A model generated the notes under the pieces. It saw only the letters and a list, made by a program, of their open reading frames with translations. It had not been told where the DNA came from and did not search any database. The position numbers were made by a program, and so were the translations under genes. Of a stretch of 27,214 bases of DNA, positions 16,108 through 25,910 are shown piece by piece. Origin of the DNA: a virus; the IMG/VR virus record IMGVR_UViG_3300036715_001053, positions 1 to 27,214 of that record; one strand, given 5' to 3'. Every line of letters starts with the position of its first letter. Within the stretch, counting starts at the first letter, position 1.

Positions 16108-16121
16108 AATTATATTATACT
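16100..16121. repeat. Palindrome over the -10 box between divergent nuclease genes
   Basis: Arms AGTATAATA and TATTATACT flank ATTA. The repeat presents a TATAAT on each strand and lies midway between the two nuclease genes, so it may be a shared operator or a bidirectional -10 region. The minus-strand copy lacks a good -35. Confidence 0.55.
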
Positions 16122-16135
16122 TGATGAGGAATAAA

Positions 16136-17518
16136 ATGGCACATAAAAAAACTACAGAAGATTTTAAGGTAGAAGTATCTTTGAAATATCCTGAGCTAGT
16201 AGTACTGGGGGAATATAAAGGTGCTGCTATAAGTATTGAGATAGGTTGTCAAGTAGGGCATACTTGGACAGTGTCGCCTACTAACTTACTATCAAAAGGT
16301 ACTAGAAGTACTTGTAGAGAATGCTATGGTAAAAGTACTATTAGGTTAGATTGGACTTCTGCTAATATTTTAAAATTAAGGGAGTTAGTAGAAAATAATA
16401 CTTCTACTGAAGAACTACAGAAAATATTTAATACTACTAAAGCCTCTATAGATAATGCCTGCTCCAAAAATAATATTACTAGAGATAGGTTTCTTAGCCA
16501 TACAAAGAGAAGGTTATTAGACATAACTAGTTCTTTAAATTATACAGTACTATCTATCCAGAACTCAAGTTATGGCAATATTGAGTATATTTGTGACAAA
16601 GGGCACTCTAATACTCAAACTATCAGTAATTTTATGGCAGGACATTATTGTCCAAAATGTATATCTGCATTAGGCATAAGCAAAGGCGAATCTGAATTAT
16701 TAGAGTTTATTAAATCAGAGTATTCCGGCTGGATAGAGACTAGTGATAGAGATATACTAGAAGGGAAAGAGTTAGATATTGTACTTCCTGATTTAGGTAT
16801 TGCTTTTGAATTTAATGGAGAGTACTGGCATAGGGAAGATAAAGTAGGTAAAAATTATCACCTAAATAAAACTAAAGATACTATAGATTTTGGGTATCAG
16901 TTAATTCATATCTATGAATCTGAGTGGGCTACTAAGAAGGAGATAGTTAAATCTCGTATAAAAAGTATCCTAGGTAGTACTTCTAAAATATTTGCTAGGA
17001 AATGTATAGTTAAGGAAATTAGGTTCCCAAAGGATTTTTTAAATACTAATCATATACAGGAGCAAGGTAGTCCTACTTCAGTTAATTTAGGGTTATTTTT
17101 TGAGAATAATTTAGTTGCAGTAATGACCTTTAGTTCTCCAAGATTCTCTAAAGAGTATACGTATGAGTTAGTTAGGTACTGCTCTATATTGAATACTACT
17201 ATAGTAGGTGGGGCGTCTAAGCTTTTAAAGTATTTTAAGAATAAATATATGGGGTCTATTATATCCTACTCAGATAAAAGATGGAGTATAGGGTCATTAT
17301 ACTCCACTTTAGGTTTTAAATACTCACATACTTCAGTACCTAACTATAGATACTATAAAAGACTAACTTCTTTATCTAGATATAAATGCCAGAAACACCT
17401 GTTAAAAACTCTATTCCCTAACTCCTTTTCAGAAGAATTAACCGAAAAAGAAATTATGTCTTTAGAAGGCTACTACCCTGTTTATGATTGTGGGAACGAT
17501 GTATGGGTACTTAACTAG
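16136..17518 (+). CDS. Homing-type endonuclease with zinc ribbons and PD-(D/E)XK/Vsr-like core
   Basis: A 460-residue protein on the strand opposite to the late genes. Two zinc-ribbon units open it: Cys38/His42/Cys60/Cys63 and Cys153/His157/Cys172/Cys175. Between them residues 72-113 look like a helix-turn-helix. Residues 183-265 resemble a Vsr-like PD-(D/E)XK core: GESELLEF, KELDIVLPDLGIAFEFNGEYWH (211-232) and a following Lys and YESEW. The C-terminal half (270-430) has LVAVMTFSSPRF and SYSDKRWSIGSLY, a domain seen with similar phage nucleases whose role I cannot state. I chose ATG 16136 (AGGA 5 bases upstream) over the more upstream TTG at 16121. The 3' end overlaps the TerL stop tail-to-tail by 8 bases. 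Placement between TerL and HNH/portal, own promoter and opposite strand indicate a mobile element. Confidence 0.75.
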   Translation: MAHKKTTEDFKVEVSLKYPELVVLGEYKGAAISIEIGCQVGHTWTVSPTNLLSKGTRSTCRECYGKSTIRLDWTSANILKLRELVENNTSTEELQKIFNTTKASIDNACSKNNITRDRFLSHTKRRLLDITSSLNYTVLSIQNSSYGNIEYICDKGHSNTQTISNFMAGHYCPKCISALGISKGESELLEFIKSEYSGWIETSDRDILEGKELDIVLPDLGIAFEFNGEYWHREDKVGKNYHLNKTKDTIDFGYQLIHIYESEWATKKEIVKSRIKSILGSTSKIFARKCIVKEIRFPKDFLNTNHIQEQGSPTSVNLGLFFENNLVAVMTFSSPRFSKEYTYELVRYCSILNTTIVGGASKLLKYFKNKYMGSIISYSDKRWSIGSLYSTLGFKYSHTSVPNYRYYKRLTSLSRYKCQKHLLKTLFPNSFSEELTEKEIMSLEGYYPVYDCGNDVWVLN

Positions 17519-21394: not shown

Positions 21395-21453
21395 GTTTAA
21401 AAATTTTGTTGCTATCTTTTAAGTTATTTCTTGTTCTTCTGGTTAATCAACTA

Positions 21454-21648
21454 GCTATACTTATAACACCTAATTACTTTTTTGGAGGTTAAGCAACTCG
21501 CTATACTTATAACACTTTGGGGTATATGAATTTTACACCTTTTGCTATACTTATAACACCTAATTGCTTTTTTGGGGTTAAGCAACTCGCTATACTTATA
21601 ACACTTTGGGGTATATGAATTTTATACCTTTTGCTATACTTATAACAC
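21454..21648. repeat. Five direct 16-bp repeats at 44-46 bp spacing (iteron-like array)
   Basis: GCTATACTTATAACAC occurs exactly at 21454, 21500, 21544, 21589 and 21633. The spacers alternate: copies 1 and 3 run into CCTAATT then a T-rich run and GGTTAAGCAACTC, while copies 2 and 4 run into TTTGGGGTATATGAATTTTA, giving a 90-bp composite unit repeated about 2.2 times. Periodicity of 45 bp is about four helical turns, so bound proteins would lie on one face. The array lies in the 559-bp gap between leftward late genes and rightward early genes. Iterons of an origin or a regulator-binding array are the main candidates. Confidence 0.8.
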
Positions 21649-21698
21649 CTAATTACTTTTATGGCATTTTCTAATATAATTTTTCTGAGAGGGGGCCT

Positions 21699-22610: not shown

Positions 22611-22750
22611 TAGGCGCCATTATACCATACTAATTGGTACGCAGTCAAACTATTTCTACCGAATTTTCTATGTTTATTTGTTGAATTACCATAGAAAATA
22701 TATTGCTTATACTTAAAATAAGCGTATAATCACTTATATCGGATAACTAA
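22583..22750 (+). repeat. Intergenic cassette, copy 1 (upstream of 22762)
   Basis: In order: stem-loop (22583-22610), inverted repeat TACCA/TGGTA (22623-22639), inverted repeat TTTTCTATG (22664-22672) / CATAGAAAA (22690-22698), promoter TTGCTT-16-TATAAT (22703-22730) whose spacer carries half of a GCTTAT/ATAAGC inverted repeat, and the leader CACTTATATCGGATAACTAA. Nearly the same DNA precedes 24113, 25080 and 26068. Confidence 0.85.
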
Positions 22751-23016: not shown

Positions 23017-23348
23017 CTTTCGCAACTATTAAATCAAGCGTGATACTAGAATGTATTGCATCATATCATAAGAAAATGACTACTAAAAATAAAGAAGGAT
23101 TACAGCGTATTATTTTTAGCAGGATGAGAGATAAAAAATATTGGCTATTTGGTCGTACTCTAACATCAAGCGAAGCAATAGCACGTCTTGAAAATGAGCC
23201 TTCTTATTATTATGGTTACTGGAGTTGCAAAAACAATAACTATGCTTATGATTATGAACTTAGGCAAATTAAACAACTAGCTAATGCATCAGAGACAATT
23301 CAGCTATCTGAAGAAATGTCTTGGATTTTAAGATATACAGAGGTATAA
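23013..23348 (+). CDS. Protein of unknown function, 111 residues
   Basis: The start overlaps the previous stop by four bases. The sequence is rich in Tyr, Lys, Asn and Trp: QRIIFSRMRDKKYWLFGRTLTSSEAIARLENE then a SYYYGYWSCKNNNYAYDYE stretch. This looks like a small globular domain; I do not recognise a family. No membrane segment. The promoter of the following Cys-triplet gene (TTGGAT at 23321, TATAAT at 23344) lies inside its last codons and stop. Confidence 0.6.
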   Translation: MTFATIKSSVILECIASYHKKMTTKNKEGLQRIIFSRMRDKKYWLFGRTLTSSEAIARLENEPSYYYGYWSCKNNNYAYDYELRQIKQLANASETIQLSEEMSWILRYTEV

Positions 23349-23369
23349 TCACTTATATCAGATAACTAA
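23321..23369 (+). promoter_or_regulatory. Promoter and conserved leader of Cys-triplet gene 1 (reduced cassette)
   Basis: TTGGAT (23321-23326), 17 bases, TATAAT (23344-23349). From the -10 on, the DNA is the same as in the full cassettes, TATAAT then CACTTATATCAGATAACTAA, but the upstream stem-loops and inverted repeats are missing because the preceding gene occupies that space. Confidence 0.7.
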
Positions 23370-23378
23370 GGAGATAAA

Positions 23379-23921
23379 ATGTTTAGCTCAATGAAAACAA
23401 AAGCTGGTAATATAGGAATGTCAAAAATATCTCAAGAGCTTGCCGATAAGCAAGCTTCTGATATGGATAAGCAGGGATGTATTAATTGTACGAATTGTAC
23501 AAATTGTAAGAATTGTACGAATTGTACGAATTGTGTATTTTGTAGGGGTTTCACTAATTGCATTAATTGTACGGATTGTACGAATTGTACTTATTGTACG
23601 AATTGTACTAATTGTATGAATTGTACGAATTGTACGAATTGTACTAATTGTACGAATTGTACGGATTGTACGAATTGTACGAATTGTACATATTGTACGG
23701 ATTGCACGTATTGCACGTATTGCACGGATTGCAAGAATTGCACAGATTGCAAGAATTGCATAGATTGCAAGAATTGCATGGATTGCATGAATTGCAAGAA
23801 TTGTACGTATTGTACCTGTTGCAAGGATTCCGCGAATTGTATGAATTGTACTAATTGCAAGAATTGTAATAATTGTACGAATTGTAATAATTGCACGAAT
23901 TGCACAGATTGCACGGATTAA
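23379..23921 (+). CDS. Cys-x-x tripeptide-repeat protein 1
   Basis: A 180-residue protein. Residues 1-33 are a leader ([16 protein letters not shown]...), nearly identical to that of the gene at 25080. Residues 34-180 are 49 consecutive triplets starting with Cys: 47 have Cys and two have Phe or Ser in its place, and the register never breaks. The second position is mostly Thr, then Lys/Met/Ile; the third is mostly Asn, Asp or Tyr. In total there are about 48 Cys. Each neighbouring pair is a CxxC. No signal peptide or membrane helix, so it should be cytoplasmic, where thiols stay reduced. Possible roles are metal binding or a repetitive rod or solenoid; I know no characterised family. AAGGAGAT gives a strong ribosome binding site. 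The open frames on other strands here are by-products of the 9-bp DNA repeat. Confidence 0.85.
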   Translation: MFSSMKTKAGNIGMSKISQELADKQASDMDKQGCINCTNCTNCKNCTNCTNCVFCRGFTNCINCTDCTNCTYCTNCTNCMNCTNCTNCTNCTNCTDCTNCTNCTYCTDCTYCTYCTDCKNCTDCKNCIDCKNCMDCMNCKNCTYCTCCKDSANCMNCTNCKNCNNCTNCNNCTNCTDCTD

Positions 23922-23933
23922 AGTAATTGACAT

Positions 23934-23965
23934 GAGGAAACATTGCTTTTTAGCAATGTTTCCTC
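23934..23965 (+). terminator. Gene-end stem-loop with 14-bp perfect stem
   Basis: GAGGAAACATTGCT, loop TTTT, AGCAATGTTTCCTC, 12 bases after the stop of Cys-triplet gene 1. No U-tract follows. The ATTGCT-TTTT-AGCAAT core is repeated after Cys-triplet gene 2. Confidence 0.7.
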
Positions 23966-24103
23966 GCGCCAATTATATCATGCCAGCATTAGCATGTCAA
24001 GCGATTTTCACCGAATTTTCTATGTTTATTCGTTGAATTACCATAGAAAATATATTGATTATACTTAAAATAGGCGTATAATCACTTATATCGGATAACT
24101 AGG
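23934..24103 (+). repeat. Intergenic cassette, copy 2 (upstream of 24113)
   Basis: Stem-loop, then GCGCCAATTATA, inverted repeat TTTTCTATG (24016-24024) / CATAGAAAA (24042-24050), promoter TTGATT-16-TATAAT (24055-24082) and the leader CACTTATATCGGATAACTA. The TACCA/TGGTA repeat of copy 1 is replaced by a divergent ATGCCAGCATTAGCATG stretch. Confidence 0.83.
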
Positions 24104-24112
24104 GGGCAAGAA

Positions 24113-24199
24113 ATGGAATTATTACTGCAAATAGTTGGCTATACTCTTGTAGCTCTTGGTTGGTTGGGTTTTATTGCTTTCTGTATAAGCGAATATTAA
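24113..24199 (+). CDS. 28-residue single-helix membrane micropeptide
   Basis: The frame reads MELLLQIVGYTLVALGWLGF followed by IAFCISEY: one hydrophobic helix covering most of the peptide. AGGGGGCAAG provides a ribosome binding site 6-8 bases upstream, at the usual distance from the cassette leader. It is followed after one base by the next gene, also a membrane protein, so the two may act together. Function unknown. Confidence 0.58.
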   Translation: MELLLQIVGYTLVALGWLGFIAFCISEY

Positions 24200-24200
24200 A

Positions 24201-24404
24201 ATGGAAAAAATTGGTACAATTTGTGGTATATCAGGCGCGACACTCGCCGCATGTGGGCTGGGTGCATTTGGTTATCCTTTGTTTACTTTGTCTAGTATTT
24301 TCTTACTTCGTTCATCATTTATGCAAGGTAACAAAAACCTTATGATGCTGCAAGGTGCATTTTTATTGACTAATATAATTGGGATATTTCACTATGTCAT
24401 CTAA
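24201..24404 (+). CDS. Two-helix small membrane protein, 67 residues
   Basis: Hydrophobic segments lie at about 8-36 (ICGISGATLAACGLGAFGYPLFTLSSIFL) in two halves broken by GYP, and 48-66 (MMLQGAFLLTNIIGIFHYV). A short polar RSSFMQGNKN joins them. This hairpin topology recalls small transporter-like or superinfection-exclusion proteins, but no motif proves either. The start lies one base after the previous stop; no separate ribosome binding site is evident, so coupling is likely. Its last codons and stop form the first copy of a 34-bp direct repeat. Confidence 0.6.
   Translation: MEKIGTICGISGATLAACGLGAFGYPLFTLSSIFLLRSSFMQGNKNLMMLQGAFLLTNIIGIFHYVI
24371..24404. repeat. 34-bp direct repeat, copy 1
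   Basis: Identical to 24548-24581, exactly 177 bases apart. It spans the end of the two-helix protein gene and the ATGTCATCTAA start of the next gene. Confidence 0.92.
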
Positions 24405-24540
24405 GATAAATAAGGATGCTATCGAATACTTAAAAAATAGATTTTATTTTTGGGATTGGGACTTAGCAATAAGCTTGAAAACCCCTAGGAATTTGATTTT
24501 GAGAGAATGGAAGAAAGCAAAGCAAAAAGGGTATATATAA
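24394..24540 (+). CDS. Small protein, 48 residues, unknown function
   Basis: The product begins MSSKINKDAIEYLKNRF and ends with basic KKAKQKGYI. It has several aromatic residues (FYFWDWD) and no known motif. It overlaps the preceding membrane protein gene by 11 bases. The start region is duplicated in front of the SprT-like gene, so both proteins begin MSSK. Its C-terminal part, SLKTPRNLILREWKKAKQKGY, has the look of a short helix-turn-helix, but this is a weak reading. Confidence 0.5.
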   Translation: MSSKINKDAIEYLKNRFYFWDWDLAISLKTPRNLILREWKKAKQKGYI

Positions 24541-24547
24541 TAGCGCT

Positions 24548-24581
24548 TAATATAATTGGGATATTTCACTATGTCATCTAA
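24548..24581. repeat. 34-bp direct repeat, copy 2
   Basis: Second exact copy of 24371-24404. Here the part that coded for the end of the membrane protein is non-coding, so it marks a past duplication or insertion; it supplies the start region of the SprT-like gene. Confidence 0.92.
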
Positions 24582-24954
24582 ATACGATTTAATTGCTTTA
24601 CAGAAATTTGCTGATGAATGGGCTGATTTTTGGTGGAAGGTTGCACAGGAGAAATTTAAACATCGGTATAATAAAAGTATTGGTACAATACCAACTATTA
24701 TTATTAATACAAGGTTAACATCAACGGCTGGGTATGCTTTTTATTGTGGTACAAAAATTGATCTTTCTGCTAAACTAATGTCGGAAAACTACCAATATTT
24801 TGCGCATGATACAATACCGCATGAACTTGCGCATATTATAGCCGATAAGATTTTTGGTTCTAAAGGACATGACGATGCTTGGAAAAAGACTTGTGTTATT
24901 ATGGGCTTTAAAACTACGCGATGCCACTCAATGCAAGTTACTAGGAGGAAATAG
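24571..24954 (+). CDS. SprT-like zinc metalloprotease domain protein
   Basis: A 127-residue protein. The HExxH zinc site is HELAH at 84-88, with GHDDAWKKTCVIMGFKTTRCHSM (99-121) downstream, as in SprT/Spartan: a third metal-binding His100 in the GH-x-x-x-W element and the conserved R-C-H. The C-terminal zinc ribbon of some SprT proteins is missing. Spartan-type enzymes digest proteins crosslinked to DNA in eukaryotes; phage members are uncharacterised as far as I know. I chose ATG 24571 over an upstream TTG at 24556; GGGATA about 9 bases before is a weak binding site. It lies between the two Cys-triplet genes. Confidence 0.83.
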   Translation: MSSKYDLIALQKFADEWADFWWKVAQEKFKHRYNKSIGTIPTIIINTRLTSTAGYAFYCGTKIDLSAKLMSENYQYFAHDTIPHELAHIIADKIFGSKGHDDAWKKTCVIMGFKTTRCHSMQVTRRK

Positions 24955-24965
24955 TTGGTAGGGTA

Positions 24966-25070
24966 TCAAGCTATTTCACAGAATTTTCTATGTTTATTCG
25001 TTGAATTACCATAGAAAATATATTGCTTATACTTAAAATAAGCGTATAATCACTTATATCAGATAACTAA
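24966..25070 (+). repeat. Intergenic cassette, copy 3 (upstream of 25080)
   Basis: TCAAGCTATTTC, inverted repeat TTTTCTATG (24984-24992) / CATAGAAAA (25010-25018), promoter TTGCTT-16-TATAAT (25023-25050) and leader CACTTATATCAGATAACTAA. The gene-end stem-loop is absent after the SprT-like gene. Confidence 0.83.
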
Positions 25071-25079
25071 GGATATAAA

Positions 25080-25874
25080 ATGTTTAACTCAAAGAAAACA
25101 AAAGCTGGTAATATAGGGATGTCAAAAGTATCCCAAGAGCTTGCCGATAAGCAAGCTTCTAATATGGATAAGTATGGATGTATTAATTGTACGGATTGTA
25201 CGAATTGCACAGATTGCGCGAATTGCCTACATTGCACGGATTGCCTGAATTGTACGAATTGTATGAATTGTACGGACTGCAAGAATTGCACGGATTGCAA
25301 AAATTGCCTAAATTGTACAGATTGTATGGATTGTACGAATTGTACGAATTGTACGAATTGCACGAACTGTATGAATTGCAAGAATTGTAAGAATTGTACG
25401 AATTGTACGAATTGTACATATTGTACGGATTGCACGTATTGCACGGATTGCACGGATTACCTGAATTGTACATATTGTACGGATTGCACGGACTGCAAGA
25501 ATTGCAAGAATTGCACGAATTGCACGTATTGCACGGATTGCACGGATTGCACGTATTGTAAGAATTGCAGGAATAGCAAGAATTGCAAGAATTGTAAGAA
25601 TTGTACGAATTGTACGAATTGTACATATTGTACAGATTGCACGTATTGCACGGATTGCATATATTGTGTGAATTGCATGAATTGTAAGAATTGTAGGGAT
25701 TGCACAGATTGCAAGAATTGCACGGATTGCAAAAATTGCCTAAATTGCACAGATTGTACGAATTGCATGAATTGCATGGATTGCATGAATTGTAAGAATT
25801 GCATGAATTGTAAAAATTGTACTTCTTGCACGAATTATGTACTTTGCACGGATTGTAGGGATTGCACGGAATAG
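25080..25874 (+). CDS. Cys-x-x tripeptide-repeat protein 2
   Basis: A 264-residue paralogue of the gene at 23379. The leader (1-33, [16 protein letters not shown]...) differs at only a few positions. Residues 34-264 are 77 triplets, 74 with Cys first; the three exceptions are Tyr, Ser and Tyr, each one base away from a Cys codon. The register is unbroken. Second positions are Thr, Lys, Met, Leu, Arg or Ile; third positions Asn, Asp or Tyr. It has no signal peptide and no membrane helix. The repeat DNA is a degenerate 9-mer (AATTGTACG, GATTGCACG) with blocks preferring TGT or TGC. The AGGAT ribosome binding site and promoter lie in a full cassette. The length difference from its paralogue is a whole number of triplets. 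Function unknown. Confidence 0.85.
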
Positions 25875-25884
25875 TTATCAAAAT

Positions 25885-25910
25885 GAAATATTGCTTTTTA
25901 GCAATGTTTC
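25885..25910 (+). terminator. Gene-end stem-loop after Cys-triplet gene 2
   Basis: GAAATATTGCT, loop TTTT, AGCAATGTTTC; an 11-bp stem with one T-G pair. Same core and place as the stem-loop at 23934-23965, without the outer GAGG/CCTC pairs. Confidence 0.62.

Follow-up and report, generated by a model that had tools for sequence, protein, structure and literature searches.

Phage proteins made of cysteine-first triplets take the place of pentapeptide repeats and may form a β-solenoid rod

The DNA analysed here (the window) is the IMG/VR virus record IMGVR_UViG_3300036715_001053, of 27,214 bases. It carries two genes whose products consist, after a short leader, almost entirely of triplets with cysteine (Cys) in the first position, which we call a Cys ladder. 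The ladder belongs to a phage family in which it stands in for the rod made by pentapeptide repeats, and it is therefore probably a new repeat rod rather than a metal sponge. The account that we favour, with moderate confidence, is that the ladder forms a cytosolic β-solenoid rod with a core column of reduced Cys, which would act during infection as a binding scaffold or inhibitor in the manner of pentapeptide-repeat proteins.

The two genes are open reading frames (ORFs) on the plus strand, at 23379–23921 (gene 1, 180 residues) and 25080–25874 (gene 2, 264 residues). In each, a leader is followed by a ladder that runs to the stop codon:

23379..23477, plus strand: leader (N-cap) of Cys-ladder protein 1, 33 residues, leader type B, with the pattern T-x3-N-x3-S-x2-SQ-x2-A-x3-A-x2-M
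23478..23918, plus strand: Cys ladder 1, 49 triplets, 47 of them Cys-first, matched by PHROG 15341
25080..25178, plus strand: leader (N-cap) of Cys-ladder protein 2, 33 residues
25179..25871, plus strand: Cys ladder 2, 77 triplets, 74 of them Cys-first, matched by PHROG 15341

The leaders are 85% identical across 39 aligned residues. The register is unbroken by any insertion or deletion in either ladder, and the third residue is Asn, Asp or Tyr in 46 of 49 triplets in protein 1 and in 73 of 77 in protein 2. The triplets that do not start with Cys are FTN and SAN in protein 1, and YLN, SKN and YVL in protein 2. An earlier sequence-only reading of the window had given the same triplet and Cys counts, with Phe, Ser and Tyr as the only exceptions and no indels, and these proved exact on recount; its remark that each of the three exceptions is a single-base change from a Cys codon was also confirmed.

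At the DNA level the window ladder is a tandem repeat of 9 nucleotides (76% match), and for this reason the ladder tracts can also be read without a stop in several further frames on either strand. An open frame alone is thus no proof of coding, and because the tract arose through repeat duplication, chance is the wrong null model for it. Cys codons within the window tracts are almost invariant at the second base and free at the wobble base (entropies of 0.29 and 0.96 bits, respectively, in gene 1, and 0.17 and 0.99 bits in gene 2). The decisive evidence that the ladder is real comes from its relatives.

Both window proteins match PHROG 15341, which has no function assigned, with E values of 7.3e-21 and 3.7e-33 and the profile lying over the ladder, as do ten of ten relatives scanned; this profile too consists of a Cys repeat, so that composition accounts for part of the match. 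Pfam and NCBIfam, metallothionein models included, contain no family for either protein at E ≤ 1. Scans for Cys triplets returned many out-of-frame or low-complexity repeats, and were filtered for a diverse second residue, Asn or Asp in the third position and a recognised leader. After filtering there were 136 relatives, mostly from phages, in which the ladder begins after one of several leader types. Profile searching of the leader and repeat against phage and metagenome proteins had been proposed in the sequence-only reading, and the PHROG match is of this kind. Leader type B, that of the window, is found in eight other phage proteins of the set, and 10 of its columns are invariant across six aligned phage proteins. 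In many relatives the ladder is followed by a small C-terminal module (A, B, C or a short tail), which both window proteins lack. Ladders in the family have about 8 to 85 triplets, and no cluster size is evidently preferred. Some phages carry many paralogues: at least eight in L333, four each in L028 and L073, and two in the window. In L333, L028, L073 and L341 they occur as clusters of three to eight or more, with near-identical leaders and different ladders.

A search with leader type A located the ladder gene in 17 records of cultured Campylobacter phages. In the records opened, its usual place is in the stretch from the portal gene to the DNA ligase gene, and some of them have a second locus. 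The Campylobacter proteins resemble those of the window in having a C-x-x ladder and a comparable leader-plus-ladder build, but their leader is of type A rather than B. A tblastn search of cultured phages gave no match for the whole window protein, probably owing to the low-complexity filter, or for the window leader. The family is absent from Pfam, and is mis-named or mis-framed in public records. The Campylobacter proteins are named ‘Caib/baif family’, or in one record ‘cysteine rich’, and the former name finds no support in the present analysis. In Flavobacterium phage FL-1 (KY421186.2; L467 1000–1800), a gene for a Cys ladder plus module A was overlooked and an out-of-frame APVAPIAP ORF annotated instead; the reading frame of the ladder gene shifts within module A. 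No description of the family was found in the literature searched, which covered few subscription journals, and the ladder is not mentioned in the searched passages of the Campylobacter phage papers. The earlier statement that no characterised family shows this pattern holds in that none of the members is characterised, but PHROG 15341 already exists, and the family is large and present in cultured phages.

Selection on the Cys positions was assessed using orthologue pairs, because the median mixing of TGT and TGC across the family is too low for such a test. In three pairs from Campylobacter phages (WX1/CC_R7, IBB_35 contig 2/F379, and CJLB-12/IBB_35 contig 4) the Cys codons show 33 synonymous and 4 non-synonymous changes, while the other columns change freely. 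If one third of changes is taken to be synonymous under neutrality, which is generous, P is about 2e-12. Selection therefore acts on the protein, as had been argued from the window. Where ladder indels among the Campylobacter phages are clear, they add or remove complete triplets (9, 12 and 27 residues); ladder length varies widely between orthologues, intact copies having 26 to 70 CxxC pairs.

As far as sequence comparison can indicate, the main evidence for the structure of the ladder is that it is exchanged with pentapeptide repeats in front of the same C-terminal modules. Module A (HCRAGW) was examined at 79 loci, and is preceded by a Cys ladder at 71 and by pentapeptide repeats at 7, with 1 unclear. 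The module is the same behind both kinds of repeat, and PF00805 was confirmed in all four of the pentapeptide plus module A proteins scanned (E 6.5e-17 to 3.3e-28). Module B occurs behind Cys ladders and also behind pentapeptide repeats, in EBPR siphovirus 1 gp3, while in Paenibacillus phage Pd_22F it follows another repeat-like region, which has no Pfam match. For module C, the preceding repeat is a Cys ladder in L461 and L318 and of the pentapeptide type in Rheinheimera phages, whose records name the gene ‘pentapeptide’. These are three independent swaps of unrelated modules, and they make the ladder the positional equivalent of the pentapeptide β-helix, a right-handed quadrilateral fold. 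Profile searches of modules A and B against the PDB gave only noise. The ladder is not a member of the pentapeptide family, because the five-residue repeat that defines it, of A(N/D)LXX type, was looked for and is absent: the window proteins have no match at E ≤ 1 to PF00805, PF01469, PF13576 or PF13599. In Rheinheimera phage Barba5S, gp43 (L464 891–1868) contains Pentapeptide_2 (PF01469) and has a tail that by eye is like that of the Cys-ladder proteins L077 and L126, which is a possible fourth swap.

Cys occupies 3993 of 4033 first positions across the family (99%). At the other 40 positions, all in register, stand Ser (15), Leu (7), Phe (6), Ala (3), Tyr (2), Asn (2) and five residues seen once each, among which Asp occurs and His does not. 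Leu and Ala, unlike Ser, Phe and Tyr, are not one base away from Cys. Five relatives, on the contigs L164, L173, L207, L210 and L235, are bacterial, and at least three of the five are mycobacterial. In each, some 25 triplets beginning with Ser, Thr or Val (112 of 125 triplets over all five) run in register into the Cys ladder, and after the ladder the protein ends with a conserved SGL(R/T)-type stretch. Judged from sequence, the mostly core-like replacements and the Ser/Thr/Val continuation would be more in keeping with side chains packed inward than with metal ligands.

AlphaFold2 was used to model protein 1 with 82 relatives. The leader was predicted with a predicted local distance difference test score (pLDDT) of about 93, and contains one helix at residues 19–31. 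The ladder has a β-bridge on nearly every triplet, at the residue after Cys. The nearest PDB folds to this model are mostly right-handed β-helices, including the pentapeptide protein AlbG, and none is significant. In a relative carrying module A, the module is confidently predicted and mainly helical, and a PDB search with this model found no match for its leader or module. A library of viral structures gave three matches below E 0.001, namely a mimivirus-type protein (1.6e-8), the family member from IBB_35 named Caib/baif (1.1e-4) and an ectromelia virus protein (3.4e-4), the last of which is taken to be unrelated. The strongest PDB match by sequence, 9e5c (E 3e-37), aligns no Cys and was rejected as an artefact of composition.

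Several results weigh against the account given at the outset. The confidence of ladder 1 is low (pLDDT about 50–70, predicted template modelling score 0.46), and in the module A relative the ladder is unstructured, with pLDDT below 50 in most of it. The PDB fold search with the protein 1 model found nothing at E 0.001, the best value being 0.07 or worse, and autocorrelation of the second and third residues shows no coil period beyond one triplet, where an ordinary solenoid might show one. With low model confidence, no significant PDB match and no readable coil length, the solenoid fold is something that we infer. Leader type C, when searched for without the ladder, is followed by a Cys ladder at 28 of 31 loci, the rest being truncated or at a contig end, and by pentapeptide repeats at none of the 31; because it precedes only Cys ladders, the swap is limited to the C-terminal modules. 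The window proteins have no such module, and for them the swap argument therefore runs through their relatives. Two cultured Campylobacter phages have truncated copies of the ladder gene, with an in-frame premature stop within the ladder in CPt10 (L501 901–1110) and a frameshift in CJLB-14 (L504 901–1197), and the gene is therefore accessory. Stops and frameshifts in relatives had been named in advance as signs of a repeat without a protein role; they are seen in these two phages, but conservation is otherwise strong. The structure prediction that had likewise been suggested gave a mixed result, with β-bridges on nearly every triplet and a confident leader, but low confidence for the ladder. 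The pentapeptide module swaps, and weakly AlphaFold2, favour the earlier proposal of a solenoid of three-residue pitch that bears a stripe of Cys.

A mechanism along the following lines can be suggested. Each gene would give a rod-shaped protein, assumed to be located in the cytosol, in which a C-x-x β-solenoid is capped at its beginning by the leader with its terminal helix. The Cys side chains would point inward and, if they are reduced as we assume, may pack the core as a column of non-liganded thiols. The second residue of the triplet would lie in a short β-bridge, and the third (Asn or Asp here, often Gly elsewhere in the family) would make the corner. The number of triplets would set the length of the rod, and would change via in-register duplication and deletion. 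The rod might then display surface side chains that bind, and probably block, a host macromolecule, as pentapeptide-repeat rods would in other phage proteins. By this analogy the ladder may work like pentapeptide repeats while standing outside that family.

The named neighbours of the family genes are mostly concerned with DNA replication, nuclease activity and packaging (68 neighbouring proteins, 25 families listed), and those named by PHROG include helicases, primase, HNH endonucleases, endonuclease VII, terminase subunits and DNA methyltransferase. No constant partner gene was found among the 68 neighbouring proteins. One neighbour (alignment A12 set) matches a phage phosphoadenosine phosphosulfate reductase, which is of possible interest for cysteine supply.

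Other explanations of the ladder can be set against the same evidence. As a special case of a binding role, the rod might mimic nucleic acid, as MfpA and Qnr do, and inhibit or protect gyrase or another DNA-binding host enzyme. The functional analogy with pentapeptide repeats points in this direction, as do the named neighbours, which are largely DNA-metabolism genes, and the charge of the tracts (of 138 proteins, 92 have a net acidic tract and 4 a basic one); the window tracts, however, are near neutral (−0.04 and −0.08 per triplet), and we regard mimicry as doubtful, if worth bearing in mind. A metal-binding ladder, in which overlapping CxxC pairs hold many soft ions (Zn, Cu(I), Fe) as a phage metallothionein or for metal sequestration, would agree with the constant CxxC spacing of neighbouring Cys, with the 47 and 74 ladder thiols per protein and with the retention of Cys against mutation. 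It agrees poorly with the kinds of residue that replace Cys (Ser, Leu, Phe and Ala, but no His and, among 40 cases, a single Asp), and with a length that varies over the family range without an evident preferred number. Neither the pentapeptide repeats with which the ladder is exchanged nor the Ser/Thr/Val ladder that it continues binds metal via thiols. Metallothionein-like metal storage, as raised in the sequence-only reading, is disfavoured on these grounds, and we think a metal-binding ladder unlikely. We give still less credence to a solenoid whose thiol column carries metal ions or electrons, as a length-tunable thiol/metal wire or redox sink during infection.

A leader followed by a Cys-rich repetitive core also recalls the precursor of a ribosomally synthesized and post-translationally modified peptide, in which the leader would bring in an enzyme to link or modify the Cys of the core. 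Campylobacter phages that have the ladder gene also encode 11–12 radical SAM (S-adenosylmethionine) proteins (PMC2853527), and in IBB_35 one such protein lies four genes from it. Against this, C-terminal modules stand behind the core in many relatives, the leaders are of several unrelated types, and a maturation enzyme of ranthipeptide or sactipeptide type was found in none of the proteins tested from the window, itself a fragment of the phage genome, nor in the 25 families listed for the 68 neighbours; such a precursor seems very improbable. Least credible is a DNA repeat with no role as protein that happens to be open in the ladder frame. The 9-nucleotide tandem structure, the several other open frames and the damaged copies in CPt10 and CJLB-14 would be expected of it, but leader and ladder share one frame in 136 relatives, and the 33:4 ratio at Cys codons contradicts it.

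The proposed β-solenoid can be compared with several known systems. Pentapeptide-repeat proteins (PF00805; AlbG, MfpA, Qnr) have a short repeat, a small or hydrophobic inward residue and a variable number of repeats, and in phage proteins precede the same three C-terminal modules. They differ in that the ladder has a period of 3 rather than 5, Cys in place of Leu/Phe and Ala, and other N-caps. The Tenebrio molitor antifreeze protein (1ezg) is a Cys-rich, tight β-helix with a core Cys column and a coil and repeat of 12 residues, and is secreted and disulfide-bonded; the sequence match to it (E 6.6e-6) is compositional and no evidence of kinship. Metallothioneins share the very high Cys content and CxxC pairs, but have cluster motifs where the ladder has a long regular register, and differ from it in that its Cys changes to Ser, Leu, Phe or Ala. 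The snow flea type of Gly-x-x ice-binding protein likewise has a three-residue repeat with one conserved small residue. Proteins of this type are polyproline-II bundles with Gly, whereas the ladder is predicted by AlphaFold2 to have β-bridges and swaps with β-helices.

If the rod model is correct, a Cys triplet that replaces pentapeptide repeats would represent a new minimal class of β-solenoid, with a thiol core. The family is widespread, in that module A occurs in 422 IMG/VR stretches and most of the 79 examined have a Cys ladder. The ladder would be a length-tunable scaffold open to direct study in cultured phages, and it raises the testable question of why phages repeatedly swap repeat rods before the same small modules.

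The window terminase has 46% identity to terminases of Vibrio phages that we take to be T5-like. The portal, capsid-protease and terminase genes are on the minus strand, and the ladder genes lie to their right on the plus strand, accompanied by the following elements:

23324..23371, plus strand: shorter, diverged copy of a promoter-like block (TATAAT box to GATAACTAAGG), upstream of gene 1
23934..23965, no strand assigned: palindrome GAGGAAACATTGC-TTTTTA-GCAATGTTTCCTC after gene 1, read from the sequence, repeat family D7
24571..24951, plus strand: SprT-like gene between the ladder genes (Pfam PF10263, E 1.2e-13), given as context and outside the ladder system
24964..25069, plus strand: 106-nucleotide promoter-like block with a TATAAT box, a repeated element immediately upstream of gene 2

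Further copies of the 106-nucleotide block are found at 22644 and 23996 (88–93% identical in alignment), and a related block precedes 26068. The ATG of gene 1 is preceded by a ribosome-binding site, AGGAG, read from the sequence. The ladder genes might possibly be expressed early from the blocks with TATAAT boxes. A palindrome related to that after gene 1 lies at 25885–25910, after gene 2.

The minus strand carries near-perfect sigma-70 promoters with an extended −10 at 24000–23972, 25949–25920, 22648–22619, 21782–21753 and 21394–21366. Two of these five are just past the ladder genes and antisense into them, and three adjoin a palindrome around AACATTGC...GCAATGTT. Five direct repeats, spaced by about 44–46 nucleotides and with GCTATACTTATAACAC in common, occupy 21434–21664, where the late genes give way to those of the plus strand. 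Next to the terminase gene, within the late region and on the strand opposite to it, lies an HNH/homing-endonuclease-like gene (16121–17515, plus strand).

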